Part shown: positions 2,494-60,337 of the stretch, one piece after another
How positions within the stretch are numbered: position 1 is the stretch's first letter
Layout: each line of letters opens with the position of its first letter
Assembly (NCBI GenBank): GCA_019054805.1
Contig: JAHQIY010000011.1
Coordinates: forward strand, 3,291,001 to 3,355,000
Direction: 5' to 3'
Length of the DNA stretch: 64,000 bases
Source: Brachionus manjavacas
Taxonomy: Eukaryota; Rotifera; Eurotatoria; Ploima; Brachionidae
Translations under genes and position numbers: made by a program
The notes under the pieces: generated by a model
Database searches by the model: none
What the model was told of the DNA's origin: nothing
Seen by the model: the letters and a program-made list of their open reading frames with translations, nothing else

Positions 2494-3987
2494 ATGACAA
2501 ATTTTTCTTATTTTATTTTAATTGCATTTCAACCGCTTGCTTTGATTGTGCAAAGTCAGCAAACAGGTCTGGAACCTTACTGTGATTACATATTCTTCAA
2601 GAGAGCCCTATATTGCTTCAGATTCACTTCGTTGGACCAATTGGACTTTGGTAACACAACACTTGAATACCAGGAATTAGTGATTCAGCCTAATTCGGGC
2701 TTAAAACTCGAATTTAACTCGAGTCTTAATTTGCAGGGTGTGAAACTTACCAGTAATGCCCGAATAGAGATTGGAAATTTTTACCGATTTGACCCTCATT
2801 TTCAGCCTTTTGGTTCAATACAAATCAGCGATCCTGACAGAATTTTCTCATTTTATATCTATGATTCCAACATACTCTTCACTGACAATGTTACGTGCAC
2901 TTTCACGGAGCAAGAGGGTCAGAATTCTTACCTATTTTCCGGTTTGAATCTAAATCGGCTCCAGTTTTCCAATGTGAATTTCACTTCCGAACTATGCCCA
3001 TTGCTGTTTAAAGACACTTCTGTCCAAGATTGGTATTTTATCAACAAAGACCCTGTAAAATACGATTCAAGCTTGAATTCCAGTCTGACTCAAGTGGATT
3101 TAAATATAAAGGTGAAAAGATTGTTTGTAGAGTATGGAGCGGACAAATTCATCAGCACAGTAAATACCCAAACTCTTTTAAACGAGCTTATTTTCGAAAG
3201 AGTTGAAGAAATTTATTTTTTTTCGTGTGATTTGGAAGAAATCGATGGCCAAAGCATGAGCAAATTTTCCAATCTAAATCGAATTTCCCTAATGAAGTTT
3301 GATTTGAAAAGTTTTCTCACCAAAGGTCTCGAATGGACCAAGTACTTGAACACAAATAGTTCCAAGTATTTCGATATTGTGTTCGACGGCAAGCTATTTC
3401 CATATCATGACTCAGATCTGTGCATTTTCAGCCATTTTCCTTTCCAAAACAAAATAATAGCTCTATTCGATCTGGAACTGGACTCGCCCGAGTTCTTTCT
3501 GCCTTGTAGTTGTGTGGTCTATTGGCTGCACAAAAATTACCAAAATTACTTCCACTTGGTCAAAAATGACTCCAGATACTTGAACCTTTTTCCATTTCAT
3601 TGTCTTGACCAAGAGCCCAGTTTGATAGAGGATCAAAATGTTCTTTGCAATAATGAAAATTCAATCCTGCAGTGTGGTCAGCCGTGGCCTCAAAATGTTA
3701 CCCATCAACCATCCCAAGGTGTCAATCAGTCGTGTTTTCTCAACCCGGATGAAAACGCCAAACTTTGCACCTGCAACATCGGCTCGGTCAATATCCTAGA
3801 GTGCTCAAGTCAATTGATCAGCTCCATGCCAAACGATTTGAGTAGTCCGCATGCTTGGGACTACGTTTCGTTCAAGGAAAGTTCGATCAGAGTCATTGAC
3901 TCTCTTCAAAATTTGTCTTTGAATTCGGCAGCTACAGTTCTTGTGTCGGATATTCAGAGCTTTGGCAAAGACATTTTTTCAACATAA
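2494..3987 (+). CDS. Lineage-specific LRR-like receptor ectodomain, first part (signal peptide, unit 1, start of unit 2)
   Basis: This 497-codon reading frame starts with a hydrophobic signal peptide (residues 1-22) and continues as a secreted, glycosylation-rich ectodomain with many N-x-S/T sites and paired cysteines. Irregular leucine/isoleucine-rich strands end in C-S-C-V-V-Y-W-L at about residues 338-346, which resembles the C-C-x-W-L signature of an LRR C-terminal cap. After that cap a second cysteine cluster (CTC...C, about 427-440) begins what looks like another unit. There is no transmembrane segment. The frame stops inside unit 2, and the reading frame at 7248-8384 supplies a matching remainder plus a membrane anchor, so I infer one gene with a large intron. 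I could not fix the donor: no strong GT site lies just before the TAA, and a small exon may be missing. Ligand and function are unknown. The same ectodomain type occurs in the 7TM gene at 57.95 kb. Confidence 0.75.
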   Translation: MTNFSYFILIAFQPLALIVQSQQTGLEPYCDYIFFKRALYCFRFTSLDQLDFGNTTLEYQELVIQPNSGLKLEFNSSLNLQGVKLTSNARIEIGNFYRFDPHFQPFGSIQISDPDRIFSFYIYDSNILFTDNVTCTFTEQEGQNSYLFSGLNLNRLQFSNVNFTSELCPLLFKDTSVQDWYFINKDPVKYDSSLNSSLTQVDLNIKVKRLFVEYGADKFISTVNTQTLLNELIFERVEEIYFFSCDLEEIDGQSMSKFSNLNRISLMKFDLKSFLTKGLEWTKYLNTNSSKYFDIVFDGKLFPYHDSDLCIFSHFPFQNKIIALFDLELDSPEFFLPCSCVVYWLHKNYQNYFHLVKNDSRYLNLFPFHCLDQEPSLIEDQNVLCNNENSILQCGQPWPQNVTHQPSQGVNQSCFLNPDENAKLCTCNIGSVNILECSSQLISSMPNDLSSPHAWDYVSFKESSIRVIDSLQNLSLNSAATVLVSDIQSFGKDIFST

Positions 3988-4251
3988 GAAGTTTTTTGGT
4001 GACACTTTTTAAAATCTTAATTATGCTAATAGAGTTTTAATTAAAAAAAATTTCTAGACAAAGTGGTTCAGTAGTCGGTCAACGTGTGTGCCTTGGAAGG
4101 TATCATGAGGATGGCAACAGAATGTTGTTGAAGTTTAAAAATTATTTTTAAATTGATTTTTTTACAAATTGACAAAAAATTAATAATAATAAATATTAAA
4201 AGTTTAATTATTAATTTTTATTGTAGCTAATAGTTCTCTGATCTGCAACAT

Positions 4252-4300
4252 ACCCGAATCCCTAAACCAGAGCTCTCTCTGTCTCGGACCCCGTTAAATT
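4252..4300 (-). repeat. Dispersed GC-rich core repeat
   Basis: ACCCGAATCCCTAAACCAG followed by CGGACCCCGTTAAA is the reverse complement of the centre of the MITE at 21845-22177. Diverged copies of the same core lie near 30716, 34576 and 34651. It is probably the relic of a MITE. Confidence 0.65.
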
Positions 4301-4599
4301 TTTATTTGACAATCAATTTTTTTATTTGACGATTTAATCATTGTCAAAAATATATTTTTAAAATTGCGTTTAAATTTAAACAAATTTTCAAGTTGATTTA
4401 AAATTTTAGCCCAAAAAATTTTTGAATTTCAATTGTAATTAAATTTAAAAAAGAAAAAAGCTAAAATTTCATTTGAAAATTCAAACAATAATTCAAATTT
4501 TTTAGATATTTTAAAATAAATTTGATCATTTAACGATAATCTCATTTTTTTTTAATTTAAAAAAAAAATTAAAATATTTTTAAAATTATTTAAGTTTAA

Positions 4600-5230
4600 A
4601 TAGGAATTGAAATGGTTTAATTTATTGTGTTTGAATTAGAAAATGTATCCAATGTTGAACTAACATTGAAAAAGTGCGATGTTACAAATATTTTTTTCAG
4701 TTTCAAAAAAAAAATACTTTTAAGTTAATATTGCAAGCATTTTCATATTTGAAATTAAACTCTTTGGTGAAATAGAATGAGAATAATTCTTTTCTAACTT
4801 TTAAACAATTCATTTTTTTATTTTTTGCCGAGGAAATGCTCCTTCAGAATAAAAACACATGAAAAAACCAAAAAAAAGTTAAAAAATATAAAATAAAATA
4901 AAAGATGAATGAAAAAAAAAGAAAAGATAAATAATTCATTTTGATTAAATTTTATATTGAATCATTAAAAAACTGGATCTAGTCGGTTAGGTGAACCATA
5001 GTTTACTTTTTATCCGAAATATTTTGTTCTCGAGTTTTGTGAACTATTGGTTTACCCAATTTTTTTGTTCAAAATAGAATTAGACGAACAATTTTTAGAT
5101 TATGTGAACAAATTATGTGAATAAAGCTATTTAATAGAATGCCTAATTGTCGAAACTTATATAAAAATTATTTAATGATTTTTTTTGTTTTTTTTCTGAA
5201 GGAGCTTTAGAAATAGCATTTGCTCTGACC
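4600..5230 (-). repeat. Repeat copy A with LINE-type stem-loop tail and TIR-like block
   Basis: The reverse complement of this segment matches about 35440-35790 plus 37590-37890, where an insertion splits the second copy. It includes the tail motif CTGAAGGAGC (complement at 4836-4848) and a block (4640-4790) that recurs at 35.0, 37.7, 48.1 and 48.5 kb. On the plus strand both long copies preserve a short peptide-like stretch, FKIELDE-x-FLDY. Confidence 0.7.
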
Positions 5231-5555
5231 TGGTTGACTTGGTATTACCCTTTCAACAATCTCAAATACCCAAATGTGCTCTTTACTTAAATCTTTGTCT
5301 TTCAGCATAAAATAATAAAAATCAAAGAAAATTAAAATTAATATTTCACCCTTCAAGTGTTTGAATTTGGGGAACAAAGATCTATCTATTTCGCAAAAAA
5401 TTCCCTTCCGCCCAACTTTAAATTTTCTATGTAATTATTTATTCTATATTTTTTTTATTTAAATACAAATGTTGGTGATTAGAGTTTTTTAACCTTTTTT
5501 ATAAATTTAACTTTTTTTTTTTCTTTTTTATATATTCTTTCTCCTTCAATGGAGG

Positions 5556-6255
5556 GGTAGACGATTAAACTCACATAAAAAAAGTGAAAATTAAAAAACA
5601 TCACATAAATATGAAAATGAAAGTTGAACATATTGGAGCAGAGAAAAAAAAACATAAAGTAAAGAATTATTTTTTGAAAAAGTTAAAAAAACATAAATTG
5701 TTTCTTCAATAGTGAAAAAAACATAAGTTGTTGATTCAACTGGTATAAAAACATGAGTTCATTTTTCATCTGTTAACAGTATCAAAGGTCTTAGCGATCA
5801 TGTAATGGGAAAGACTTACAAAGACATTGACTTACAAAACTTTCCAAATGACCAACCGTTCTAATTTGTTGTAGACATTAACGACGGAAGTTAAGAAATC
5901 CACTTTCATCTTGGTGTTACTTCTAAGCAGTTGTTGTCACACATCAAAATAGATTCAATTTTCCATGCAGACTATACTTAAAAGTCGTTTGGTGCGACAG
6001 ATATTAAGCGTAAATTCTTTCCTATATGCTTTATGGTTACCTCTAGTGTACGAGAAAATTAATTACGACTAAAATGTTTATGTTTTTAATTAACTTTTTT
6101 ACTTTGATAAATAAAATTGACTTATGTTTTTCTAAAAGTTATACAATATTCCTATATGTTTTTTTCACGTTTCACTACTTTTCAAAAAAAAATTATGTGT
6201 CTTTCTCTTTGTTTATGTTTTTTTAACTCACTTTATGTGAATTTCAACCTACACC
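5556..6255. mobile_element. 700 bp non-autonomous inverted-repeat transposon with 9 bp target duplication (MULE-like)
   Basis: The element is bounded by the direct repeat CAATGGAGG at 5547-5555 and 6256-6264. Its two ends are imperfect inverted repeats: GGTAGACGATTAAACTCACA on the left and GGTGTAGGTTGAAATTCACA read inward from the right, both continuing into TAAA and A-rich ATAAG/ACATAA words. It has no coding capacity. A 9 bp duplication is typical of Mutator-like elements, and MULE transposase relics occur elsewhere in the window (17.9-19.6 and 54.8-56.8 kb). It sits inside the stem-loop of a LINE 3' tail: CTCC-TTCAAT-GGAG on the left, AATAAATAAATA on the right. Confidence 0.8.
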
Positions 6256-7247
6256 CAATGGAGGTTAATTTAACAATAAATAAATAAAATAAATTATTTT
6301 TTATTATTTCTTTGGCTTTTTTAAATGCAAAACAGAGCATGGTAAGTTTTTTAAACTACAAATTTTATCTTTAAGGATCATCATATCACAAACCCAAAGT
6401 CAAAATTTATAAAAAAACTCAAATTTTTTCATGTTTTCAATATTAACTTAAAATTATTTTTTTTTGAAATTGAAAAAAATATTTGAAAATCTTTAAACAT
6501 ATTTAAACCAAATTTAATTTAAATTTAAATTCCTATAAATTGTATTGTTTGCTCGAATTGTCAATTTAATTTACTAAAAAAAGAATTTTATTTCTATTTT
6601 TAATCTGAAATAGCACACTGAGCATAAATTTTATAATAAAATGGTAAGATCAAATATTAAGAACCTTTAAATTTTAATTTGAAAATTAAAAATAATTTTC
6701 TATTTACGCAAATTTTGAATAATTTTTATTTTTATTTTCAAAAATAAAAATTTCCTTTATTTGATAATTTTTAAATTTTCTTTTACCTTTTCTTACCAGA
6801 ACTACTTAAAATTAGCCTAAATTTTGGTCAAAATAGTCTATTAAATATAAAAGAAAATTTTTTTTGTCTATTTCTGAATTTATTAAATCATAAAAGTACG
6901 ACAAAAATAATCCAATGCTTATTCCCAAACTTTAAAACAATTCTTAATATTTGTGATTTTTTTAAATATAAAAAAGTTAAAAAACAATCAAAAATAATTA
7001 TTGGAAAGATATTCATTTAATAAAAAATATTATAAATGAGGGCTTTTATTCAAAAAAAAATTTAATAAATAAAAATTTTGAATCAATCTTTTAAATAGAA
7101 CTGAACTCAAATTTTATTTTAATTTCATTTCAAAAAAAAATAAAGAATTATTTATGCACGTTTTATAAACTTAGATTTTTAATTGGTAAAATAAATTACT
7201 GTAAAAGTTAATTTTTTTTGTCAAAATCTTAAATTAAAAAACTTGAA

Positions 7248-8384
7248 ATGAATATTTTGAGTAAAAATATAAAATTTCGATTCGTCATCGAAAATTCTGT
7301 GCTAAATTTGACCAATTTTAGCTTTAGGTTCACAAAATTTTCAAGTTTTGAATTTAAAAATTGTCTCTTTAAATCAAGTTTATCAGTCAAAATTTTTGAA
7401 GGCTCAGAAATAGACTCACTTGTGATCAACCAAATAGACTTGGGCTCAGAAAAGCCATCATTCTATTACCAACCAATAGATGGCATAAAAGTAAAGAAAA
7501 TAAAAATTGCCAACTTGTTTCACGTTTTTTCTCCGGCTCTTGAACTAGACTCGAATTTGCTTAATCCATGGCTTTTCAAAAACACAACCGAGATTCAAGT
7601 AGTCAACTCTGCATTAAAATCTATCAATTCATCTGATCTGTCCCGCCTGCCCTTAAAGAACATACGCTTGGACAATGTAAATTTTGGTAACATTCTGAAC
7701 AGCTACTTTAAAGTGTTGCCGAGTTTGGTCGGCAGCAATCCGGTCAGCTTGAATGACCCAAGAATAAATTGGCTTTGGAGTAAAAACATTGAAAGAGTTT
7801 ATTTTGGCAACAATAATTTATTAAGAAATAGCTTGGTTCTAAATGACACAATTTGTTTTTACGCTGGCCTAAGTCCTCACACAAAGGTTTACTTTTATGA
7901 AAATTTAAACCAACCTAGTGGACTAGAGTGTACTTGTGTAGTTTACTGGATTTATAGATCGATTGACTTTGCAGAGTTGGCAAATGATCCGGACTCGAAA
8001 TACATTCCGAGCTGTGTAAAGAATTTGAACAACACGTCAGAATTGAAAAAAAAAATTGAGCTGTGTTTTGCTAGTAGTTGCAGTCCGGTGATCAGCTGCC
8101 GAAATTTGGCCAATTTATGTCCGACAGATCAATTGACGACTCTAGAAGGAGAAATCTTCAGCACAGAAACAGGGTCCATGAATCAAAGTGTTACCACAGT
8201 GACAGACTTAAATTCAAATGAAACAACAACCAGGCTCAGTGAAGACTCGAACAATTTTGTAGTTTATTTGGCTGTCGGCCTGTCCGTGGTTTTTGTTGGA
8301 GCCATCGGAATTGCTGGGTGGATAATTTACAGAAAAAAGTCACTGATGACTGTCAAAGATATTTTTAGTCTTGAAAAACTTTGA
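7248..8384 (+). CDS. Lineage-specific receptor ectodomain, second part, with single transmembrane anchor
   Basis: The frame has 378 codons from the first ATG, but that ATG is probably not a true start: there is no signal peptide, and the sequence begins inside an ectodomain. An acceptor AG at 7260-7261 would start the exon in phase. The order of elements matches unit 1 of 2494-3987: F-rich strands, then L-rich strands, then C-T-C-V-V-Y-W-I (about residues 228-235) and further paired cysteines. A Ser/Thr-rich stalk (about 290-335) leads to one transmembrane helix (about 337-361) and a 17-residue basic tail with no kinase or signalling motif. I infer that this is the membrane-proximal half of the gene that begins at 2494. 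An AATAAA lies 18 bases after the stop. Function is unknown. Confidence 0.75.
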   Translation: MNILSKNIKFRFVIENSVLNLTNFSFRFTKFSSFEFKNCLFKSSLSVKIFEGSEIDSLVINQIDLGSEKPSFYYQPIDGIKVKKIKIANLFHVFSPALELDSNLLNPWLFKNTTEIQVVNSALKSINSSDLSRLPLKNIRLDNVNFGNILNSYFKVLPSLVGSNPVSLNDPRINWLWSKNIERVYFGNNNLLRNSLVLNDTICFYAGLSPHTKVYFYENLNQPSGLECTCVVYWIYRSIDFAELANDPDSKYIPSCVKNLNNTSELKKKIELCFASSCSPVISCRNLANLCPTDQLTTLEGEIFSTETGSMNQSVTTVTDLNSNETTTRLSEDSNNFVVYLAVGLSVVFVGAIGIAGWIIYRKKSLMTVKDIFSLEKL

Positions 8385-8401
8385 TTTAATTTTAGATTTT
8401 T

Positions 8402-8407
8402 AATAAA
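8402..8407 (+). promoter_or_regulatory. Polyadenylation signal AATAAA
   Basis: A canonical AATAAA lies 18 bases after the stop of the single-pass receptor gene. In such AT-rich DNA the motif is common, so position is the main support. Confidence 0.45.
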
Positions 8408-12929: not shown

Positions 12930-13644
12930 CTATCTGAGAGGAATAAAACGAGACGAGTGAGTAGCACCAATACCTGGTCTACCGTGCTTGACTGGCTTGT
13001 AAGACAAACTGAACTCGGCCAAATAGTGACCGATCATTTCAGCTTTGATTTCGACTTGGTTGAAAGTTTTTCCGTTGTAAACACCGACCATGCAGCCGAC
13101 CATTTCGGGTATGATGATGGTGTCTCTCAAATGGGTCTTGACTACGGCTGGTTTTTCCAATGGTGGAGCTTCCTTTTTGGCTTTTCGCAATTTTTTCAAC
13201 AAAGCCAAAGTCTTGCGCTTCAAGCCTCTGTTGTAGCGTCTTCGGGCACGAGCATTCAGCAGTTGGATCAGCTCGTCACTAAAATTTATTTTGAAATTAA
13301 TTTTTTTTTTTAATAAAAGGTGTAAATTGAATTTTTATCTAAAAAAAGGTTTTAATTGCTGCGGAAATTAGAACCTTTAGGGTCAATTAGCATTTCTGTA
13401 GCATACGTTGCAACCACAAAAACAATTGTTTTGCCAGAGTGGGTAATACATATGCATTGGTGTTTTTGATGCGAAAATTACCTTGATTTATCCAATAGAG
13501 CATCTAAGTCGATTCCTCTGTAGGTAAATTTACGGAAGGTACGCTTCTTCTTTAATTCGACTGCCTCTTCGATTGAACCAGTTACTTCAGCCTTTGAAAA
13601 AAATTCAAGTAAAAATAAAAAGCCAGAATTAGGGAAATTACCAT
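12930..13644 (-). CDS. RPS15: 40S ribosomal protein S15 (uS19), three exons
   Basis: Exons on the minus strand are 13642-13644 (the ATG only), 13482-13591 and 12930-13278, joining in phase to 153 codons (human is 145). Introns are GTAATT...AG. Exon 2 gives the N-terminus with [17 protein letters not shown]. Exon 3 starts with the split Ser codon (AG|T) and continues DELIQLL, a basic RRRYNRG region, the [10 protein letters not shown] motif, [25 protein letters not shown] and the near-invariant C-terminus [12 protein letters not shown]. The protein is a structural component of the small subunit head near the decoding site and is essential in all eukaryotes. An intron directly after the start codon is a common layout of ribosomal-protein genes. 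Codon use is GC-richer than the surroundings, as expected of a highly expressed gene. This is the most certain gene in the window. Confidence 0.97.
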
Positions 13645-17886: not shown

Positions 17887-17889
17887 TAA

Positions 17890-26800: not shown

Positions 26801-29800
26801 AGTTTATTTTTGAAATAAAGAATATGTTGTTTAGATTTTCTTCAATTTTCATGATCAGCTCAATTCCATTGATTTTATTATAATTTTTTAGCTTTTGATC
26901 TCACAAAACCTTTAATAACACAATATGTGACCATCTGGCTTAGGAAATTGCATTGCTAAAATTTTTCAGAATTTGAAAAATATTTTTAAAACCATTTTTG
27001 ACTAATAATAAAAAAAAATTTAAAAGTGATCCACCTTTATTCCGAGTGGAAGCGGACAAAGGCTTTTTTTATTCTCAATTTGATGAAGCTTTCATTTGCC
27101 AAAAGAAAAACCATTTTCAAATAACAACCCACACACTGATGAAAAAAATTCCAGCTTATTGTAAACCAAAATTTGATTCACAATTTTACCGGATCGACAA
27201 ATTCCTTCTACAGCTTTACGGAATAAAACAGGAGTCGCCCTTGCAAAAAATTCAAATCAAACAATCGGACTCGGACCGAAAACCAATTGATTATGAGCCT
27301 TTCGAATGCAACTTTACCCCGGAACAAACCAGCAAATTTACCAAAATGAGACTCCATTTTGCCCATACCACTAACAATAACAACCGGAAGAGAAATAAAG
27401 CCGGACTCACCATTCCAAATCCGGATCAAAGATATTTTCTTCTAATAGTCGAAATTCAGCTGATGACCGATTCCGGAAAAATATTCACTTTGTGCTCCTC
27501 TGCTTCTGAAAGAGTTATAGTCAGAGTAAACTTATAAGCAGATTTTTGGCGAAAATGGTCTTTAATTTTTCAATTTAAGGCTGTCAATCCAGGTCAATTT
27601 AAGCAGGAGACCTGTGATGGAAACATTTCCCAGAGTAAGCTAAACAGCATGTCTAATGAAACAAACGAGATAGATAACAGAGACATAAAGCCAAATGAAC
27701 AAAAGTATTCCTTTTATGGAAATGTGGGCATTAACACTGCCAATCCAGATGAGGCCCTTACTGTACTGGGAAATTTAAAGCTTACTGGCAATATGCTTCA
27801 ACCATCAGATGTTCGTGTAAAAGAAAACATTAAACCAGTATTTAAAATTTTTAATTTTTTTTTCGTAATTAAATGCACCAAATTTTGAGCATTAATGGCT
27901 TCAATCTTTAAAATTATTATTATTTATTTCAGTGAACGCCTTTAAGGCGATGTTAAAAAATATTAAAAAAGAATAAATGAGATAAACAGTTTTAAAGAGA
28001 TTAAAAATCATACTAAATAATTAATGTAAAAAATGTTAATTAAACTAGTTTGGTTAAATATTATTCAAAATTTCTTTTATTTATTTTTTTCTTCGATCCA
28101 GGAGGCAGAGTAACAAATCAAACTTTTGAAAATATTAAAAAAGAAAAATTATTGAGGAAAGCAAATAGAGAAATGTAGTAGAACTGCTTTTTGAGAAATG
28201 ATTAGATTTATATTTGAATTAAGATAAAAATTTAAAATTAATTAAAATAAAATACATGCTAGGTGCATTTTTTCGTCTAACAATAAAAATCCTCATAAAA
28301 AAAAGAATATTTAGTTTTTACTGCTCAAAAACAAAAACTTTAAAATTGCTATATTTTCTCAGTAAATATAAAGTAGTAAAATAGCTTTTCTCAAATAAGA
28401 AAAAACTTAGTTTATTACACTAATTTAAAAAAAAAAAACTTATAAAATACTTTCATTTTAATAGTATCTTTTAAAAAAATTAAATTAAAAAAAATTAAAG
28501 AAAACTAATGAATAACTCAGTTTTTAATTTTTTTTCTTTGCTTTAAAAAAAAATAATTTTATAAATATTCTTGTTATTTTTCTTTAACTGCAAGTCCTAA
28601 AAGTATTTACCAAGCCTATTAAATGATTATGAGTAATAATTAAGATAATCTTTCGATTTTTTAAAATCGAAAAATTCGTATTTCAATAATCTTTAAAATT
28701 ATTTTTTTTGAAATGGAAATGGTTAAAAAATTTTCAAAAATTTTGATTAGCATTTTTTTTTAATAATTAGTGGAATTAAGCAAAGAATTAAATGAACAAG
28801 ATATTTTTGTTCTATCCTTATACAAGGCTACTTTTTACACCTAAAAGAATGTAGAGACTAAAAATTAAAAATTCTATGTTTGATGAAATCTATTTTTAAT
28901 CTAAATATAATTAGATTGCAAAAGTAGCTCCAATATATTTTTTTAAATAAATTTGAAAATTTTGAAAGTCAAGCCTCTTCAAAATTGTTTCAATTTTTTG
29001 ATTTATGCTTTTTTATCACTATTAAAAATCACCTGTAAAAATTGACTTTATCTAAATTAAATAAAGTTTAATATTTATAAAGATTTTCTTAAAATGAAAA
29101 TATTTTTCATTCATAAAAGACTATTTTTTTGTTCGAAAAAAAAGCAAATATCTTAAAATGGCTTCCAAAGTCCAAAATAAAAGACGTCTTTTTCTTTTTT
29201 TTGGTCTTATCTTTATCTAACAATTGCTTGACTGTGAATTCGTTCAATAAAACTACTTTCAAGAATTTTAGAATTTGCTGATAAAATTAATAATTTTTCT
29301 CAAAAAATAATTTATGTCAAAAAAGGATTTTTAAAACAAAAAATTTTTTTACTTATAAAAAGTGATTTTATTTAGTAAATTTATTTTAGTGATAAAAATA
29401 GTATTTTTAGTTACAAAAACAATTTCTAGCCAAAAATTTTTATTAAAAGACGAAAAAATACACCAAACTTTTAAAAAAATTAGCAGATTAAATTTTTTTT
29501 GTGTTGATATTTTTCTTTAATATTTAACATTTAAGGTTGACACAAATAGAGCCCTCGAGAATGTGTCGAGACTAAAGCTTTATAAATATGACTACAAAAA
29601 AGAATTCACTGATTTTAACAGTGGCTTATCGAGTGATTACGGAGTATTGGCCCAGCATGTGCAGGAAATAATACCCGATGCTGTTGTTTCAACAGGCGAC
29701 TTGGTTCTATCAGATGGTCAAATAATTAACAATTTTTTGAATGTCAATAAAGTAAAACTTTTACAAATATTTCTATTTGATTTTGGAAACAATTGTTTTT

Positions 29801-45765: not shown

Positions 45766-48700
45766 ATGATTTTGAAAATTTTCTTTTTTTCTATTATCAG
45801 TTCCATTTTGGTTGATGCCAAAATATCGAATAGCGATGCGATAGTAGGACTCAAATCTGACGCACTGTTCTTAAAATAATTCTTAATCTATTAACAGGAT
45901 TATTTGAGTAAATACGGCTATATTAGAGAGTCCAAAGGCAGCTTGATGTCGGGCCCTGCATCTTTTTCGTCCTCTAATAATGTTCTTAAAGATACTCTTA
46001 GGTAAATTGAAAATGAAATCCATTGTTAAAACTTTATTTAAATGTTGATGTTTAGACGTTTTCAGTTGATCCATGGCTTGCCAATAACTGGGATACTAGA
46101 TGAAACTACAGAGAAAAAAATGAACTCTCCAAGATGTAGCTTGCCTGATTTTCGACCTGGAGGAAATGTGGCCAGCTTCAAAGCAGGTGTGTTTCGACAC
46201 ATTTTGGTAGTTTTTTTTAAGTTGTATTTTTTTGAAAGCTAGCAAGTGGAAAAAAAAGGACTTGACATTCGCTGTATTGAATGAAAACCAAGAGCTACGA
46301 GGTCAGACAAGAAGAATAATGGGCGAAGCATTAAAGCATTGGTCCGATGTTTCAGGGTTGACTTTTCGAGAGACTCATCCGAATTCAAATCCTGACTTGA
46401 AAATTAAATTCGGATCCAGACATCATGGTGATAGTTATCCATTTGATGGTCCAGGTGGTGTTCTCGCTCACGCTTTCTTTCCCGAAGAAGGACAAGTTCA
46501 CTTTGATGAAGATGAAACTTTTACCGATAAGAAGAAAGACGGGACAGATTTAAAAATAATTGCAGTCCATGAATTTGGACATGCTCTTGGTCTTGAGCAT
46601 AGTTTGGAGCAGGGAGCTGTAATGAATCCTTATTATCAGGGCTATGATCCATATTTTAAACTTGGCAAAGATGATGTTCATGGAATTCAGTTTTTGTATG
46701 GAAAGCCCAGCTCATACAGTCCTACAACTATGAGGACGACTCCGAGAACCACAACAAAAAAACCATTGATTACTAGACCACCTATTGCAACTACTAAGGT
46801 AGATTTCACTTTTAAAATTTTTAATTGACTTTCTAATATTGAGCAGGAAAAATTTTATAAAATGTTTCTAAAGACAAAATTTTAAAAATTGATTTAAGCT
46901 TCACAGTTAAGGCCTTTAATGTAAAAAACAATTTACGATATGCTTTGAGATATTTGACAGAAAAATTTTTTCAGAATATCTTTAGGTAAATATTTATTAT
47001 AAATTTTGATTAAAATTGTGAAGGTCACTTTATAATTCGCTATTACTAAGCTTGGGGCTCTCTGAATTTCTTTCCCAGAAATTATTATCAAAAAAATAGA
47101 TTAAAACAAATTAATTAGAATTAACTATAAAAATTTATTTACAAAATTTAAATAGAAAAAAGTTGTGATTCAACAAAAAAATTTATTTTTTATAAAACTA
47201 ATGTTCAGTCATTAGTGAAGATTTTCTTTCATTAAAAATATAATTCAATCCAAAATTTTTTTTCTTAATAACAGTTCCAAAAATTCAAAAGTTAAGTGAA
47301 ATCTAAATTTCATTTTTTTTTGAGAGGCTCAGAAAAAAAAATATACCGAGGAGTAATAGGTAACAAGAAAAATGCTAAGTGATAACTCAGGAACCAAATC
47401 CTATTTAGGATCCCATATGAGTCCCAAAGATTTCATTTTCAAGATCTTGACTAGAATCTTGCCCGACGAGCGTATTCATATCCTAAGAGTAATAAATTCA
47501 GATTTTTTTAAGAATCTTATTTAGATTCCTAAACAAGATTCTTTAAAAGGAAATATGAGGAAATTACCAAGATTTGAATCAAGATTTCTAGTAGATTGCT
47601 ATAAAAAAGAATGTGTTTGGAAACAAAATCAAATTTTTTGCTTAAATTTCTTAAATATTTAAAAGTCAAGATTCTAATAGTTTTCTTAAAGAATTTTAAG
47701 AGTTAATAAGATGTTTCCAAAATATTTCTATTACCAGGGTTTCCAATTTTTTAGAGCTCGACAATAACCACATCTAATTTTTTAATTCAAAATTTAAAAA
47801 AAAAAAAAGATCAAAAATCCTTTTTTTAATAAAAAAATGTAATTTTTAAAAAATTTTGGACTCTTTTCCTTTAAAAGACAAAAATTTCAGAATCGTGAAA
47901 AAATGAAAATAAACCCATTGGGTCAAAATATTTTTATCTAGAATAATTAATAAAATAGATCTTAAAAACTGAAATAAATAATGTTTTTTCTAATATAAAA
48001 GCAATCACTTAAATTACTTCCAATTGTTTGATTTTCATTTTATTTCTATTATGAAAAGTTTTTGAATTACAAAATTTGTCCTGTGATGAAATAGCATTTC
48101 AAAAGTGCGATTTTTCAAATTTTTTTCGTTTAAAAAATAAAAATAATTTTAAGTGAATATTGCAAGCAGTTTATTTTTAAAAATTTTGCTTTAATGTGGT
48201 TTAAAATTATTGATTTTATGTAAGAAGTTTAAGCAGACTCAAGATTTTCAATAAAAAGTAAAAATTTTACTACATTGGGTTACTAATGGCTCATTTTACT
48301 TAAGATTTAAAAAATTTTGAAAATTTATTTTTTTATAAAAAAATCATCAATGATTTAATTATTAATTATTCATTTCGATGGTTATGCTCATATTTCTTAA
48401 ATAAAATTTAAAGTTTAAAGAATAATTTTCAATTTTTCAAAGTAAAATCAAATTCGTTCTATTTCACCAAAAAGTTTAATTTCAAAATGAAAATGTTTCC
48501 AATATTCACTTAAATTATTTTTTTTGTTAAAATGAAAAATATCTGAAGCATCGCATTTTTGTAATGTTATTTCAACACTGGAGACATTTTTTCATTTAAA
48601 AAATTAAAACATTTATAGTAGTATATATCTTTAAATTTATCTTAAGTCAATCTTGAATTATTTTTTAATGTTTAAAGTCAAAGACCTTTATCGGAATCTA

Positions 48701-51700
48701 AAAATTCTTAACATTTTTTTTCCTATGTGTCCAAAAGATACTTTAGTCTTTAAAGCGAACATAGTGGACACGGTCGTTTATTTTAGGAAATAAATTTTTG
48801 AAATTTTAATCAAAATGTTTTAATTTGTAATATATTATAATTTTAAAATAAATAGAATGAAATAAAATAAGAATAAAGAGAAGCAGAGAGAAAGGGGATT
48901 TGGTTATATTTTAAGTTTGGTTTCTTTTGTATTTTACATATTTACAAATTATAGATATAATATGTCAAATTTGGGAAATATTTTAATAAACTCAATAAAG
49001 TGTAGATTTACATTATTAATTTTTCTATGTCAAAATAGAGAGAATTAAAATCTAGATCATTCAGTGTAAAAGAGTTGAACCCAACACTTCCTGGAGTATT
49101 AAGTTTATTGCTATTTCTTAAATTATATGGTTTGTTAAGAGATTCGTTCACAATAAGTCGAGTTTTAAGTGGAAAAGGCTATTCTGTGTTTTTTAAAGTC
49201 TTATAAGAAAAACAGCTAAGCTTAATAATCAGCCTATTTTGAAAACAGTAGAGACCTAGAATTTCTAGATTATTATCAATTGTAATGAAATCGTTAGAAA
49301 AATTAACTTGGGCTTTGAGATTGATCAATTCGAAAAACGAAATTTAATATGAATTGGACAGAGATTGAATGGCTGGTTTGAGAAAAAGATGACAAGTGAT
49401 AAACAGTAATCAAAGTGGGGCAAGATGAAAGTTTTAAAAAATTGTATTTTAACTGTATTTGAAAGAAAGAATAATTGCTTTATTTATTTATTTTATTTAT
49501 TTGTTTTCTGTACCGAGCTAGGGATCCTTCAGAATAAATTAAAAAAATCAAAATCAAAATAAAAAATAAAATTAAAGTTAATAAAATGAGATACAAAAAA
49601 TCAAAATAAAGTAAATAAGCTAAAAAAAAATGAAAGTTTTAGAAGACATAGATTGTTACATGTGGAAAATGTTTACATAGTTCAGGTTTCAGGAAAAAAG
49701 GAGGAAATAGTAAGGTGTGCAATTACACAATGGAGTTGGGTATTCAATATATCTCGATTCGAAACCTTCTTTGTATTCCTCCACCAGTCTTATAACCAAT
49801 GGAATAGAATGACTCAGTCCTGTCCCAACATATCTCTCACTCAACTTTAAAAGCCGACTCGAGACTGTTAGTAATTTTAGTTTATTAAAAGCTTCATGAT
49901 GCACCATGTTAGAGGGAGTATCATATTTTAACTTAAGGATAGATCTGAATGCTGTATTCTGAATTGCTTGTAGTTTTTTGATATTATTTTCTGAAAATGA
50001 ATTCAAGCAAGGAAAAGAATAGTCTAAAATTGATTAAAGATTTATATAAATTTCCTAGTGTGTTTTGAATGAGACCCCATTTTTTATTTGACAGTATCTT
50101 AATAATATTTAGCCTTTTGTTGCAGCGTTCTTTAATTTCGTCTACTAGTATATTAAAGTTTAACCTAGAATCAAATTTAATACCAAGAAACTTGATTTAT
50201 TTTTGGCTCTGTATTCTGTTTCCATAAATTTTTAAGTTTAGATTATCACTCTCTTTTTTGTACCTAGAGAAGACTACTGAACACGACTTTTCAACTGATA
50301 TCTTCATTTTCCATTTTATAAGCCATTCTTCTAGTTCGTTGGTGCATTTATTTATCTTATTTTCTAGGTTCTCCTTTTTGTTATAAATGAAGAATGTAAC
50401 TAGATCATCTGCAAAAAGCAGAGAGTATTCATTATTTGTTTTGTTGCTTTTGGGGATGTCGTTAATGTATATACTAAATAAAAGAGTTTTATTGAGTTTA
50501 GCTCTTTATTGATAAAAGCTTTTAGATTTATTTATTATCAATTATTACACCTTAAAATTTGAATTGAGGTACAACCCCAATTTCGAATGATTTAAAAATT
50601 CTTAGCAATTAAATTTCTTTTGTACACATAGTATTTTTTTAGGATCCTATAGACTCTTAAAGATTTATAATTAGGATCCTCTACCCTCCAAGCTTAGGAT
50701 CATATACTGTCCTGGATCAGGATTTTAGGCCGGAAAAAAAATTATATTTAGATTCCTGACAATATTCCTTGTCAAATTCCTTCTCAATATCTTTAATAAT
50801 CATCTCAACCAAAAAATAAACAACCTATGCACTTAGTCTCATTGTAATAATGGTCATGTGACATGAACATTGCTACATTTAGCTATCTAAAACCCTGTGC
50901 ACAACAAATTAGGATTCTATCAAGAATGGGCTCCTGGGTTATTTCAAAAATGTCGTAATAAAAAAAAGAATTAAATTATTTATTTTTATGTTTATTTAAA
51001 GACTTAATTTTTTTAATTTTTAATTTTTAAATATAAAAAGCCACACATTAATAAATATTGGGACTTTCTGCCGTGCCATCTTGAAAAACAAGCAGTTTTT
51101 TTGGGTCCCGATTGGTCTAGTGTGTATGCGATTCTTGATGATGATCATGGTTTCTACAAGTTCGATTTAGGATCTAGATCATGGAGAAAAGAGAGCCTGA
51201 GTAAAGTCTACAGAGGATTACCAGCAGAGGCCCGAGGAGGCTTAATCGATGACAAAGGGATTACTTGGTTTTTTCATGGTGAAATTAAACTTTACGCTTA
51301 TTCAAATTTTTAATATTTTCATAACTTTTAAGATGTAAATATATATGCTTTTCGAAGAACTCAGCTAATTCGGGGCTATCCTAAAAAAATAGATGACTTT
51401 TTATACCCAAAGCATCCATATGCAGCTGCTTATAAAAATAAAAAAATTTACTTGTTTAAAGTATTATTTTAATTTTTTTATAAATGATAGCTTTAAATTG
51501 TTGATTTGACTAATTTTAAAATTTAAGAATTGGCTCTTGTACGAATTGGATGTCGAGAATCTGAAAATCAAAAATATCCATCGGACTTCAACCATATTCG
51601 ATGGTTTATCAATGCACGTTGATGCTGCTTTTAGATATAATGGCTTTCAGTATTTTTTCAATAATGAAAAGTTGTTTTTTAATTTTGTTTTTGAGAGATT

Positions 51701-51812
51701 TAATAAATTTTTAAGTAAATTTTTTAGAATGTACAAATTTGATGAAAGATTAAATCGAATGGTGAATGGATATCCAAAGCTAACATCGGAGGATTGGTTT
51801 TTATGTAAATGA
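45766..51812 (+). CDS. Secreted matrix metalloproteinase with hemopexin propeller, 8 exons
   Basis: Exons: 45766-45843, 45898-46001, 46056-46186, 46239-46798, 51041-51278, 51333-51460, 51528-51670 and 51728-51812. All are GT-AG and in phase, giving 488 codons, a normal MMP length. In order: a signal peptide (about 1-18); a propeptide with DYLSKYGYI and RFQLIHGLPITGILDE; the cysteine switch PRCSLPDF (usual PRCGxPD, here Gly to Ser); the catalytic domain starting near WKKKDLTFAV; structural calcium/zinc sites in HHGDSYPFDGPGGVLAHAFF; the zinc site HEFGHALGLEHS; and the Met-turn AVMNP. A Thr/Pro hinge (TTMRTTPRTTTKK) follows, then a four-exon hemopexin-like propeller opening with LPCH and closing with WFLCK, whose two cysteines would form the usual disulfide. 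There is no transmembrane or GPI segment and no clear RxKR furin site, so it should be a secreted, matrix-degrading protease. The splice after exon 4 crosses a 4.2 kb intron full of transposons. Confidence 0.92.
48081..48600. mobile_element. 520 bp MITE of the GTTGAAATAACATT family
   Basis: The left arm (about 48081-48180: AAAAGTGCGATTTTTCAAAT, AATAATTTTAAGTGAATATT) is inverted relative to the right arm (48430-48600), whose inward reading has CAGTGTTGAAATAACATT and AAAATGCGATGCTTCAGATA. The same terminal block occurs at 4640-4790, 35.0 and 37.7-37.9 kb. Confidence 0.7.
49490..50505 (-). mobile_element. 5'-truncated LINE with reverse transcriptase and stem-loop tail
   Basis: Minus-strand reading gives FSIYINDIPKSNKTNNEYS, then LLFADDLVTFF (about 50.40 kb, catalytic), several broken segments and a C-terminal frame (50006-49689) with NIKKLQAIQNTAFRSILKL and LKLLTVSSRLLKLSERY. 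The 3' end has CTGAAGGATCCCTAGCTCGG and an (AAAT)n tail at 49490-49530. This ties the CTGAAGGAGC tails found elsewhere to a real LINE. It is inserted antisense in the metalloproteinase intron. Confidence 0.88.
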
Positions 51813-51827
51813 ACTTCCAAATATACC

Positions 51828-53759: not shown

Positions 53760-54600
53760 ACAGTTTATAGATAAAGATTTAAATTTTACAAGTCTCTCCA
53801 ATGCTGGTGTAACTGCATTTATTCTATGTAAAAAACTCTTATCTTCAGTAAAGTCGACTAGTTACAGCCGAGAATGGTTTAACAATGGCATAAGGAAATT
53901 AACAAGAAGAAAATACAAACTGCATCTGATGATAAGGTCACGAAAACGATGTATTGCATTAAAGGATGATTATAAGGAAACATTTAAAGAGCTTAAAAAA
54001 ATTGGTAATATTTACGCGTACTCTTTTTGAAAATAAAATTGTTCAAGCGTCAAAAACAATCCAAAACGTGTTTACTCTAACATCAAAAATCAAAGAAAAA
54101 ATCAAGACAAATTAAGATCACTAGCAAAAACCAACGGTGATTTGTAGTAGACAAGGAGGCAATTGCGAACTTATTGAACGATCAGTTCCAAAAGGTATTC
54201 AGTATAGATACAAATGAAGAACTACCTAGTGTTCGGACCTGGTGTACAAACTCCTGTGTAATTGCCAAAGAGTTTTTCCCAGAGAGTAACATCCTGAAAT
54301 ATATCAAAAAGCTTGATAAAACAAAATCCTGGGGAAAGAACGGTATACATCCACATTTAATAAGCAAACTTTGCTTATTCTTTGCAAAGTTATTAAAGCA
54401 AAATTTTAAAACAAGTTTCGTGTATAAAAAATGTGTGAAAAGCGGAAAATATAACTCCTATTTGTAAGAAAGGAAAAAGGGCTGAACCGATAAATTACAG
54501 ACCGGTCTCACTGCCATCAGTAGCATGCAAATTAATGGAAAGAATTATCAAGGAAGCAACGATGGCCCATCTAATAAAACTACTTTTTACCATTTTCATA
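53760..54600 (+). mobile_element. LINE fragment: linker and start of reverse transcriptase
   Basis: The translation gives SREWFNNGIRKLTRRKYKLH and CIALKDDYKETFKELKK, then NGDL-x-VDKEAIANLLNDQF, KVFSIDTNEELP, ILKYIKKLDKTKSWGKNGIH and, after a frameshift, INYRPVSLPSVACKLMERII. This is the stretch between endonuclease and RT plus the first RT motifs of a CR1/Jockey-type LINE. The catalytic half is missing, so the copy is truncated at the 3' side, unlike the others. Confidence 0.85.
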
Positions 54601-54788
54601 AATTATTTAGCTTGAATTACGCTGTTAATGATTTACCTGAAGACGTTCACTTTTAATTCGACATTAACTTCAAGATACAGATAACTTTTAATCAACAAGG
54701 TATAAATTCATTCTCGTTAAAATATTTTACACATATCTAATCTCTACTAAACATTTAGATTGGACTAAAATATTTATTTTAGAGATAA

Positions 54789-56846
54789 TATTTAAACTAA
54801 AGAAAAACATTTCTTATTTAAAGTAAAACTTATCTTTAATAAAGTATTCCATTTTTTTTTAAAGAAAAAAACTCTCAAATAAAGTGAAAATATTTTTTCA
54901 TAAAGAAAATTCTGCTCTCATAAAGAAAAGTATTTTATTCTAAAGTAAAATAATTGTAATATATAGCCAAAAAAATCTAAAATAAAGTAATTAAATACAA
55001 TTCTAAAGTTTCACTAAAAATGGACGAAAACAAATGGACTATATTTAAAGAAGAAATGAGTATACAAGAGTTAAAATACTTTGTGACATATTGCTTACCA
55101 AAGTCACTTGCTTATCAAACAAATCATGATACATATTGCGGTTACTGTTTTTACAATGAACTGCAAAGGCATAAAGCAAAGCAGCAGTTGCGTAAATGTG
55201 ACGCCGATGTTAATTGTACAGTAAAATACCGTTCTATTATATGCGAGACTAAAAATGTATGTTCGATTGCACAAAAATACGAACATTGCCATGATATATC
55301 GACCTCTTGGCAAACATCCGAAACTTTATCCAAGGCAAATAAGGTCACATTTAAATAGTAATAGGAAAAAGTTAAACAAAGAGGATATAACACTAATCGT
55401 TTCACAAATATCTGGGTTTGTCAATCGTCATCGTAATAAAATTTCTCCAAAAGAAAATAAAGTAGAACATGTCGAAGCATTTATCGTTGACCACCTTTAT
55501 TTTCCAACGAGAATAAACCTTTCTTTTTTTAGGATTCAAAAATAATGACAACCACCCAAATATAGGAAACGGTTCTGCAGCAAGTCATACGTCTATCTTC
55601 TGTACGACATTAAAGTTACTCAGACTCAATTGTGATACTTCAAACCAAAATTATTCTTTATTTCACGTATACGGGACTTATAAGATAACTAAAGAGGGCT
55701 ATCCTATATTAGTTTTCGGCCGATCTAACCCGAATAAAAAAATATACCCAACTGTATTTGGAATAGTATCACATGAAGAGACTACGGATTTTGTTCATTT
55801 CTTCGACTCCATCAAACAAATATGTAATTTTTTTCAAATTAAATTTCAACTTAGATATTTGATGCAAGACGCTCAAGCTTGTTGTTTTGCAGCTGCAAGA
55901 CAATGTTTTCCTGGAATTGTAATTTTAATGTGCTGGTTTCATCTAAAACAAAACGTTAGACGACATTTAGACAAGTCAAATTATAAAGAACATAAAGATA
56001 AGATAGAAAAAGATATAACTTCATTACATTACACGTCAAATATTGATAAGTTTTTGCATTTGAAGAATGAACTTTTAAGTCAATGGTCTTTGTATCCTGA
56101 GTTGACTGAATTCAAGAATTATTTTATTGGTCAATGGCTTGATAGTCAATGGAATAACTGGCCTTTATTCTCTAGTCCGCCTGGCTTCTCAATCACAAAC
56201 AACAACACTGAGGGATTTAATAAAGTTATCAAACAGATTTATACTAATTATGAACGCGGCACTATTTTGGAAGGTTGTAATATGGTTGTAAAAATGGCAA
56301 CAGACCTTAGTATAGCTCAAAAAAATTTTGATCTGGCTATAAAAAGAGATAATGTACTGATCACCGAGTCAGACAACCTTACATTGTTGGATTTTAATAT
56401 AATAGACAAGAATTCGGCTTATCGTGTATATGATAACACAAACAAGTAATTTATTTCATTAAGGCCAAAGTATTGCAGTTGTGTTTATTATCTTGAGCAT
56501 GGGATTTGTAACCATTTTGTAGCTTTAAGTCGACTGACTTATACTCCATTAGAAGATGATGTTAGAGAATTTGTATGTGTACGAAAGCGTGGTAGACCAC
56601 TGAAATCCAACAATGGAGCATTATCAAAAAAATAATTTATTGAATATTTAAATTAGATAAATTTTACTTTAGATAGGATTTATTTTACTTTAGAAAAGAA
56701 TAATTTACTTTAATGAAAAACAGTTTCCTTTATTTAAGATTAATTTTACTTTAACATAATTATATTTGTCCTTTTTTTAAAAATAAACTATTTAATTTCG
56801 TAATTTTTTACTTTAAATAAGAAATGTTTTCCTTTAGTTTAAATAG
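54789..56846 (+). mobile_element. MULE DNA transposon with terminal inverted repeats
   Basis: The left end (54789-54828) reads ATATTTAAACTAAAG, then AAAAACATTTCTTATTTAAA and GTAAAA. The right end read inward (56846-56808) gives CCTATTTAAACTAAAGG and AAAACATTTCTTATTTAAAG. Further TAAAGTAAAA words point inward from both sides (54.8-55.0 kb and 56.65-56.8 kb) and may be transposase-binding repeats. A broken MULE transposase fills the interior. No 9 bp duplication is obvious, so the outer edges may be eroded. Confidence 0.8.
55020..56637 (+). pseudogene. MULE transposase pseudogene (frameshifted, one stop)
   Basis: The first frame (55020-55330) carries a FLYWCH-like cysteine region: TYCGYCFYNEL, CDADVNCTVKYRS, EHCHD. 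A frameshift near 55310 leads to YPRQIRSHLNSNRKKLN, and another near 55540 leads to the catalytic part: HVYGTYKITKEGYPILVFG (first catalytic Asp replaced by Tyr), MQDAQACCFAAARQCFP (second Asp kept), LMCWFHLKQNVRRHLD and ITNNNTEGFNKVIKQIY. An in-frame TAA at 56447 precedes an intact SWIM zinc finger, KYCSCVYYLEHGICNHFVAL, and the basic end VRKRGRPLKSNNGALSKK. The frameshifts, the stop and the lost Asp mean it is dead, although it is younger-looking than the copy at 17.9-19.6 kb. Confidence 0.85.
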
Positions 56847-57384
56847 GAAGCCTTTATTTTATTATTACTTCTTGTTATGTTTAATTATTTTTTATACAAG
56901 ATAAAGCATTAGCTTTAATTTAGTTAAATCTAATTTTTGCCAATTTTTAGAAAAGATAAGGTGGAAGAGTGCCAATTTGACACCACAGTCTTTCTAGAAT
57001 AATGATAGTTAAAAATAAATAAAAATGAATACTGAGGAATTACAAATAAGTACTATTTGATTTACAGTAATTATTTATTTAATGCACCTTTTATAAAAAT
57101 TAAAATTTCCTTCAAATTTCAATTAAATCAAAATGAAATTATATTTAATTGAATCAAAAAAATAATTAAAATTACAGCTTTAAATTTGTTAACAAATTGA
57201 TTGTCATAATAATAAAATAAAGATTAAATAAGAAAGATTTTGAATTTTTTCAAAACCTATCCAAAGTCCATTAAATAATAAAAAAATATCATTTATTTAA
57301 AAAAATAATTTAATTTTTAAAAATTTTTTTAAAAGTCTGAAATATAATCTTTTTTTAAAAATTATTTTTTTAACGTTACATTTA

Positions 57385-57462
57385 TTTAACTTGACTAGGT
57401 TTTGAACCCGGACTCTGAGTCGCAAGAGGCTGTGTTTTACCCACTAAACTACCACCTCTCTA
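57385..57462 (-). repeat. tRNA-derived SINE head or tRNA pseudogene
   Basis: The minus strand reads GAGGTGGTAGTTTAGTGGGT, then AAAACACAGCC and, after an anticodon-like region, GGGTTCAAAACC (B box GGTTCRANNCC). The D stem GTTT/AAAC pairs around AGTGGGTA. The acceptor stem does not pair with the expected 3' side, so this is not a working tRNA gene. A SINE promoter head is the best reading. Confidence 0.55.
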
Positions 57463-57953
57463 AATGAAAGAAACATCATCAAGTTTCCATACATGGACAA
57501 TTCGATTCAGCTTAATATTATTTTGCCATAAAACAATAATTTCGAAATTATTCTGTTCGCTTTTTTCCCCATGATTTTTTGAAGAGCATTTGAAGAGCCT
57601 TGTTTCAGGACGATAAAATTGATAAATTATTTTTGCAGCCAAATTATGTAATATTTTCAATTAAAGATATTTTTAAATACGAATGATTATTGTTTTTTAA
57701 TTTTGAGCGTCGTAATTTAATCTGACTAAAACTAAATTTTATAGAGATTCTTATTCGAATTTCAAAATTGTTTTAAAATGCAAAATAAAATAAAAATCTT
57801 TAATAAAAAATTGACTGCGACATCGAATTTGGAATCATTCTTACATTAGAGCCCACATTAAAACTTTTAAATTTTAATAATCATCATTTAATTCAGATAA
57901 AGTGAAACAGGTTTATAAATACACATTTGTCTCTCAATCAGTCTAAATGAAAG

Positions 57954-60337
57954 ATGGAATTTTCCTTAAATATATTCTTAGTGATATTTTTAATTCCACA
58001 ATGTTCTTCTAATCAACTAAATGACTTGACGCGTTTCAATAACCAAAGCTCTCTATCCAAGGATCAATGCATCAAGATGATAAAAAGCTATTTTAAAATG
58101 ACTTCTAAAACTATCAATATTTTTGGTAATAAAAAATATTCAATTTTAGCTGAATTTAAAAATTTCCGGTCATTCAATCAAGTGCAATTGAATTGTATTG
58201 ACAGTTCGGACATAAATTTTATTCTAAACTTTTTTCCCAGTCGACATCTAATCCTTGATTCTTCATTACAGTTTAATTTGGGTGAAAAAAAAGCCAGTCG
58301 ATAAGCAATTTTTCGCCACCATTGTATTTAAATTTTGTCAATATCCAAGGCATCGAAGTTCAAAAAAACATTTTTCACAAAATTTTAGGCTTTTATAAAT
58401 TCTATCAAATAACACTATTCTATTCCAATTTTCATCTCTTTTTTCAAAACAAGCCTGTAAAAAATTGTTCCGGGCTAAAAAATATAAAAGATTTATTTCG
58501 CGGACTTTTAAATTTTATATGCACTTTTACAACTAGATATGAGTCTAAGATGTGTCCATTTATTTTCTCTGGATCAAACATTGATTTGGTTCAATTCGAT
58601 GGTTTATCTAATGTTTTTCTTAAAAGAAACATTATTTCCTTTATTCACGTTAATCAAAGCATTCAAAATTCGGTGAACAGACTATTTCTTTCATCTTACC
58701 GAGTCAGATTAGACGACTCGGTTTTAAGTCCGCAATTATTTAATGGCATTAGTTTGCTTTCGCTAAGTGGTTCTGTGGACAAAATTGAAAAAGAAGCGCT
58801 TAGAAAACTACTCCAAATAAAATTGATCAAGTTAGATTTGGAAGATTTCGGCTTTTTTTTCTCCAATGGCATGGACTGGCTTAATGGGCTTGAATTCAAT
58901 AGTGACTATTTGATTGTGGATTTTAGCACCAAAAGTTACTTTTTTTCCGATGAAGACATATGTCTCTTCAGAAATGTTATTCTCGATCCTAGAATTTTTA
59001 TTTACATCACAGCGCCCAATCTCAAGTGTACTTGCACCATCATGTGGCTCCAAAGATCGTTCAATTCAAGCAAGTCCCTTTTTTTCAGCATAATCGATGA
59101 AAATGCCCTGACTAGTAGCTTTGTAGCTTCCTTTTCACAGGCTTGTTGGTCAAATACGAATCTAAGTGCAGAAAATTGCGCCTTTGAAGAAAAACTGAAC
59201 AAATGCAGACCGCATCATGTTGGACAAATATTTACATCAAGTGACATTCTGTACATATCTGAGTATTTTAACTTTATTTCTATCATTTTATTGCCAGTCA
59301 TTTCAACAGCTGGACTGATCACCAACTTAATAAATGTTCAAATAATTGTTCGTGTTATCAAAGAGGACAAGGAGAAAAAATTCAAAGTGTTGAATTTGAC
59401 CATGCTGGCAAATTCAATTTCCAATTTGGCTTATTTTTTTTTGTCTATGCTGCATTTGATGAATAAATGTGTCTATCCGAATGGAATATTTTGCTCGTCC
59501 ATATCCCATAGTTATTTTGTTCAACTATATGAAATAATATTTATGGAATTTTTTCTAAACTGTCTAAAAATATTGTCCAATATGTCAATTATACTTCTAG
59601 CATGGATCAGGTTGTCTAGTCTAGTGTCTGGCAAAATTCTTGTCCTCGACGACAAAGAAGAAAATAAAAAAAAGCTGAAATTGTTTATTAGTGTTTTTTT
59701 GTTCATCAGTTTGATGCTATCTGTTGGCAAAATTTTTGCAGCTCAAATAAATACAAACTATTGGGTTGGTGATGAAAATAATTATGCGGAGTTCCCAAAT
59801 AAGAACACTTTTCAAAATTTGCTGATCCGATCCAGAACAATTACCTACATAGAAATAAAATACTATGGTCTTATTTCTTATGTATTTTTTTGCCTTTTTA
59901 TTCTCAATTTTTTGGTAAATGATGTTTTTTTGACTTTGACAATGATCGGTACAGACACGGCGATGCTTTATTTTCTTCGCGAGAAGATAAAGATGAAAAA
60001 ATCAATCGAAATGAAAATTTTGAATAGGAACAAAAAGGAAATGAAATTACAGCCTGAATTGAAAGATAAAAGAATAATCAAAACAATAGTTGTGAATTTA
60101 TTTATAGTTTTTCTCCTCAAATTCCTTCATTTGTGCGTTTCGATTCATTTCTTAGTCGTCAAATTAACTTATTTTAATAAAGAAAATTATTGTGTTTTTA
60201 ACAGCAGAGTATGCAGTAATTATCTCGAATTTGCTGAATTGTTTTATTCAATTTCAAATATTTACACAATTGTCTTATACTACAATTTGAACAAAAACTA
60301 TGAAGCAGCATTCAAGAAGATGTTTAATTTTAGTTGA
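57954..60337 (+). CDS. Seven-transmembrane receptor with lineage-specific LRR-like ectodomain (one frameshift)
   Basis: A frame from 57954 opens with a signal peptide (NIFLVIFLIPQCSS) and the start of the ectodomain. At an A8 run (58284-58291) the frame shifts by one base and stays open from 58286 to the stop at 60335-60337. The ectodomain ends in C-T-C-T-I-M-W-L (from 59027) plus paired cysteines, as in the genes at 2494 and 7248. Seven hydrophobic helices follow, at about 59262-59345, 59385-59460, 59520-59610, 59680-59750, 59860-59960, 60085-60165 and 60215-60290. TM2 has NLTMLANSISN. After TM3 there is WIRL where rhodopsin-like receptors have DRY, and TM7 (SNIYTIVLYY) lacks NPxxY. It looks like a divergent rhodopsin-type chemoreceptor or orphan GPCR at the plasma membrane. 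The homopolymer makes a sequencing or assembly error as likely as true pseudogenisation; the long open remainder favours a working gene. Confidence 0.82.

Follow-up and report, generated by a model that had tools for sequence, protein, structure and literature searches.

We analyzed a 64,000-nucleotide stretch of the Brachionus manjavacas genome (contig JAHQIY010000011.1, positions 3,291,001 to 3,355,000; hereafter the window) and found that three blocks on its plus strand are homologous. Module homology, the cysteine caps, and the hydrophobic anchors are demonstrated here. The evidence supports a common leucine-rich-repeat (LRR) type ectodomain that ends in an LRRCT-like cap and is carried on both a single-pass and a seven-transmembrane (7TM)-like anchor. 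On balance, we favor two surface-receptor genes with a common diverged LRR module: gene 1 (2494-8384), with a tandem pair of modules and a single transmembrane (TM) helix, and gene 2 (57954-60337), with one module and a 7TM core. Block 1 is open reading frame (ORF) 1 (P1, P0001), block 2 is ORF2 (P2, P0002), and block 3 comprises a start piece (P3a) and a main ORF (P3, P0003).

An ORF scan of the window gave plus-strand open frames at 2485-3987, 7233-8384, 57951-58304, and 58286-60337. BLASTP aligned P1 with P3 at E 7e-11 (identities 61/253), P2 with P3 at E 1e-4, and P1 with P2 at E 1e-3. The significance of local alignments was judged against 500 shuffles per pair. P1-P3, P2-P3, and P1-P2 reached z scores of 15.1, 10.0, and 6.8, respectively, and 0/500 shuffles were as good for every pair. 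After removal of the CxC cap start, the z scores were 12.3 (0/500), 4.7 (2/500), and 2.9 (7/500), respectively. This drop suggested that the P1-P2 likeness is owed largely to the cap. The strict motif C-[ST]-C-x3-W-[LI] was matched three times in the six frames of the window, once in each block, and never in any of 60 simulated windows preserving first-order base transitions. These results agree with the original prediction, which had assigned one ectodomain type, this motif, and a series of spaced cysteines after it to all three blocks. The cysteine series (CxC-C-C) is present in each:

3505..3675, plus strand: cap 1, residues 338-394, CxC-x29-C-x14-C-x8-C
7929..8081, plus strand: cap 2, residues 228-278, CxC-x25-C-x16-C-x4-C
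59027..59206, plus strand: cap 3, residues 248-307, CxC-x36-C-x10-C-x8-C

In our reading, this is an LRR module that has diverged strongly and ends in a CF1-like LRRCT cap with four cysteines. CxC-x3-W-[LI] resembles the start of an LRRCT cap. PMC4561518 defines two LRRCT cap classes, CF1 (CxCx17-24Cx9-18C) and CF3 (the GPCR type, CCx14-27C; GPCR, G-protein-coupled receptor), together with an LRRNT cap consensus, CPx2-5CxCx6-19Cx6-8Px3P. A CF1 pattern widened post hoc to x17-36 matched once each in P1, P2, and P3 and not in P3a; the fraction of 3000 shuffles with such a match was 0.036, 0.0077, and 0.0187 for P1, P2, and P3, respectively. The CF3 (CC-type) pattern had no match in 4/4 pieces. 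When a profile of the three blocks was searched against the PDB, two sequences were matched at E up to 10, VLR-A (E 2) and LRRC15 (E 4.4), and both are LRR proteins. The structure model of block 1 had a mean predicted local distance difference test score (pLDDT) of 43.3, with about 50-70 over residues 150-310 and repeated strands. Foldseek ranks 1-13 for this model were all LRR proteins or complexes with one, including Toll (best E, 0.026), LGI1, GPIb-alpha, VLR, and 5T4. Together with the profile, this fold of low confidence is a weak pointer to LRR proteins of the extracellular kind, and an LRR fold is presumed for the module.

The anchoring of the module differs between the two genes. The features of gene 1 are as follows:

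2494..3987, plus strand: ORF1, with a signal-peptide-like start, LRR module 1, cap 1, the beginning of a second module, a TAA stop, and no TM helix
3766..3831, plus strand: LRRNT-core-like CxC-x9-C-x8-P, residues 425-446, putative opening of the second LRR module
3988..7232, plus strand: gap of ~3.2 kb with dispersed repeats, proposed intron
7248..8384, plus strand: ORF2, beginning within an LRR module, with cap 2, a TM helix, and a short tail, and without a signal peptide or N-cap
8247..8336, plus strand: single TM helix of ORF2, residues 334-363; a tail of 15 residues follows

It is fairly likely that ORF1 and ORF2 form one gene rather than two, and its layout is then probably signal peptide-LRR-LRRCT-LRRNT-LRR-LRRCT-TM with the 15-residue tail. 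Several observations argue for this. The LRRNT-core match at 3766 is the sole stop-free one in the six frames of the window, albeit lacking the CPx2-5 start and the Px3P spacing of the consensus. The start of ORF2 is not signal-peptide-like. AATAAA lies close after ORF2 (18 nt 3') and block 3 (1 nt 3') and is distant after ORF1 (201 nt 3'). Finally, in-frame GT-AG junctions exist, such as 3945/7262, and the gap holds dispersed repeats (at about 4612-5161 and 6347-6491) that recur near 35, 37, and 48 kb at up to 92-93% identity. All 18 phase-2 donor-acceptor pairs were in frame and open, an outcome that alone carries little weight because the pairs were preselected for phase. In a Kyte-Doolittle scan with a threshold of 1.4, block 2 had one strong hydrophobic segment, residues 334-363, and no hydrophobic start, and block 1 had no hydrophobic segment apart from its signal-peptide-like N-terminus. 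The ORF1 tail showed no significant likeness to module 1 (424/500 shuffles as good). A resemblance of this tail to the other N-termini was also considered and dropped, with alignment scores within the shuffle range. Two claims of the original prediction for this locus were kept in part. Each of 2494-3987 and 7248-8384 holds a module, as had been proposed, and the two blocks more likely belong to one gene with tandem modules than stand as separate ectodomains. The proposed single-pass anchor with a short tail is present in block 2, and ORF1 by itself lacks one. Upstream of gene 1, two 226-nt direct repeats (282-507 and 604-829) are 83% identical.

Gene 2 contains these features:

57954..58304, plus strand: block 3 start (P3a), with a signal-peptide-like N-terminus, the first ectodomain part, and a stop just beyond an A-run
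58286..60337, plus strand: block 3 main ORF (P0003), with the LRR module, cap 3, and the seven-helix part
59255..60286, plus strand: seven-helix region, residues 324-667, hand-set limits

Block 3 likely has seven helices, as judged from its AlphaFold model, in which seven long helices are seen at a mean pLDDT of 43. Its core is probably rhodopsin-like and diverged. The 7TM anchor of the original prediction stands in this low-confidence model and falls short by hydropathy, which gave five regions (320-358, 417-454, 462-490, 521-556, and 595-631). The non-canonical DRY and NPxxY positions noted there were found again: at the expected places, set by eye, we take the DRY position to read IRL and the NPxxY position to read TIVLY. 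The C-terminal LNKNY-x3-F-K-K after TIVLY resembles class A helix 8. With hand-set limits, 12 of the 44 residues of the third intracellular loop are K or R, and no cysteine lies in the putative second extracellular loop (ECL2). The last cap cysteine is 16 residues from TM1. Block 3 may couple to G proteins. PF00001 did not match the membrane part of block 3 at E up to 10 in a search whose HMMER filters restrict weak matches. No GPCR was among the best 50 Foldseek matches listed for the block 3 model, and this mixed list was set aside as unusable for the 7TM part. A PDB sequence search with the membrane part gave two matches (E 2.8 and 4.4), which were taken as chance. A subthreshold TMEM132_C match to block 3 (E 0.0016 and 0.0018) was ascribed to membrane-helix composition. 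COX8 and DUF2627 matches to block 2 and influenza hemagglutinin matches (E 0.66 and 0.67) were likewise ascribed to chance. A MULE transposase domain (E 3e-13) is encoded at 55517-56449 (plus strand), on the 5' side of the 7TM gene at a distance of about 1.5 kb.

A number of observations weigh against two intact receptor genes with an LRR module. The published CF1 range of x17-24 fits 0/4 pieces (P1, P2, P3, and P3a), and the range of x17-36 was widened after the data had been seen. Pfam gave no significant LRR, LRRCT, or 7TM match for the blocks; its only LRRCT_2 match was subthreshold and in block 3, at the motif site (E 0.21 and 0.089). NCBIfam gave no significant match for the blocks either. 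The classic LRR repeat pattern was not enriched over shuffles in 4/4 pieces, and "degenerate", the word used in the original prediction for the leucine-rich fold, is therefore apt. Other folds appear at lower ranks of the block 1 Foldseek list, and the block 3 list is mixed with non-LRR entries and headed by a chitinase. None of the fold and profile matches reached E <=0.001, and both models have a mean pLDDT of 43. For gene 1, AATAAA is frequent, with 253 occurrences on the plus strand of the window (~4 per kb). Its best donor, GTCGGA (3945), is unlike the window donors GTATTT, GTAAAA, and GTAGAT as read by eye. Likeness between the ORF1 tail and the remaining N-termini was not significant, since 173, 358, and 820 of 1000 shuffles scored at least as well. 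For gene 2, TM2 and TM7 lie under the hydropathy threshold of 1.4, leaving five regions and not seven. Its reading frame shifts at the A-run 58286-58304 (near 58290), the overlap of two ORFs, and this break may reflect either an assembly error or a young pseudogene.

In a rival reading, the blocks are three separate genes or fragments, as drawn in the original prediction. ORF1 would then encode a secreted protein with one module, ORF2 a single-pass protein preceded by a 5' exon of its own, and block 3 a 7TM receptor. This arrangement is possible and, in our view, doubtful. ORF1 has its own stop, the sole donors near its end are weak, and its tail lacks a significant likeness to known N-termini. 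However, a solitary LRRNT-like start closing a finished protein is hardly sensible, and ORF2 would be left without a signal-peptide-like start. There are also real doubts about the intactness of both genes. The blocks could be decayed members of a receptor family with little or no current function, with a frame shift at the A-run in block 3 and with a stop and repeat insertions interrupting gene 1. The frame shift at the A-run, the stop at 3985, and the repeats in the gap, up to 92-93% identical to their copies, suit such decay. The frames of 500, 383, and 683 residues are nevertheless open in a region of 24-34% GC, so any break would be young, and A-runs are typical sites of assembly errors as well. 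We regard decay as unlikely.

Chance likeness of unrelated cysteine-rich ectodomains is highly improbable. The weak P1-P2 similarity outside the cap, equaled by 7/500 shuffles, and the lack of a significant LRR family match would suit it. P1-P3 still surpassed every shuffle without the cap and aligned by BLASTP at E 7e-11, and the motif was absent from 60/60 simulated windows. A chance origin of the motif itself was ruled out by its presence in 3/3 blocks, the shuffle tests, and these simulations. Two surface-receptor genes with a common diverged module remain our preferred reading, which bears out what the original prediction observed and part of its interpretation.

The window holds several other features. 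A ribosomal protein S19-family gene, RPS15-like, lies at 12930-13334 on the minus strand (Pfam E 2.9e-33). Exons at 26977-30280 on the plus strand encode NDT80_PhoG (E 3.9e-19) and Peptidase_S74 (E 1e-9), a pairing known from MYRF. At 31146-32188 on the minus strand, two overlapping frames appear by eye to be reverse-transcriptase remnants. A Matrixin match (E 4.5e-52) with a downstream hemopexin match (E 2.1e-5) at 46211-51812 on the plus strand is probably a single matrix metalloproteinase gene. The Matrixin match and the ribosomal S19-family gene are both in keeping with an animal source. A tRNA scan of the window found none.

In the favored two-gene reading, gene 1 would give one secretory-route protein in which two tandem modules precede a lone TM helix and a tail of 15 residues, and gene 2 would place one module directly on a seven-helix core. 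For ligand class and all function, we infer that the ligand of the LRR modules is a protein or peptide outside the cell. The 7TM form would relay binding to the membrane core, nearly hinge-free, and the single-pass form would act without a signaling tail, as an adhesion molecule, a co-receptor, or a ligand sink. The decoy, co-receptor, or adhesion role of the original prediction is suggested by the 15-residue tail. A more ambitious proposal, which we hold to be quite improbable, is a lineage-specific system in which evolution moved one CF1-capped LRR recognition module between two anchors, a diverged 7TM receptor without a hinge and a tandem single-pass protein without a tail, both binding the same ligands; the single-pass protein would tune the 7TM receptor as a decoy or co-receptor, and the system could take the place of Toll receptors where they have been lost.

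The module type is well known, and its pairing on two anchors would be a new, modestly interesting variation. If true, the combination of a diverged 7TM core with an LRR module under a CF1-like cap would mean that LRR and 7TM came together independently. The homologous module on a single-pass anchor within the same 64 kb would offer a case for studying one ectodomain with different outputs. In a bdelloid rotifer, 7TM receptors and LRR proteins are both expanded, according to PMC3846280, and proteins with LRR and 7TM would connect these two expansions. No relative was confirmed in the viral and prokaryotic collections searched (none of 40 pattern matches in viral contigs and none of 36 in genome contigs), as expected for an animal gene. 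A literature search on titles and abstract openings, with subscription papers and preprints outside it, found no such receptor family described.

Among GPCRs, LRR ectodomains have been described chiefly in the LGR family of leucine-rich-repeat GPCRs (glycoprotein-hormone receptors, LGR4-6, and RXFP1/2), with a different cap type. Block 3 resembles LGRs in its N-terminal LRR-type ectodomain ahead of a 7TM-like core. It differs in the short distance from cap to TM1, the missing PF00001 match, the non-canonical DRY and NPxxY positions, and the cysteine-free putative ECL2. Its cap is CF1-like CxC, in contrast to the CF3 cap given for GPCRs in PMC4561518. LGR membership of block 3 was ruled out because both the CF3 cap and the PF00001 match are missing. 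ADGRA adhesion GPCRs also carry LRR and LRRCT before the 7TM part, with immunoglobulin (Ig), hormone-receptor, and GAIN domains between. Block 3 has a comparable LRR-type module and LRRCT-like cap ahead of its 7TM-like part and no room for any of these domains, since only 16 residues separate the cap cysteine from TM1.

For gene 1, the Foldseek rank 1 of the block 1 model, Toll, is a natural comparison. Provided that ORF1 and ORF2 belong to a single gene, and only then, gene 1 would share two LRRCT, an internal LRRNT, and one TM helix with P-type (mcc) Toll proteins. Gene 1 differs in its 15-residue tail, the lack of a TIR match in Pfam, and its weak LRRs. Proteins without TIR are not counted as Toll-like receptors, and some rotifers have lost these receptors, as stated in PMC8609888. 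The LRRNT/LRRCT adhesion and recognition proteins Slit, LRIG, LRRC15, and VLR, which are single-pass or secreted, share the CxC-type cap, the single TM helix, and the short tail with gene 1, and VLR-A and LRRC15 were the two PDB matches of the block profile. In contrast to these proteins, the repeats here are too diverged for Pfam, and a homologous module is also found on a 7TM-like core.

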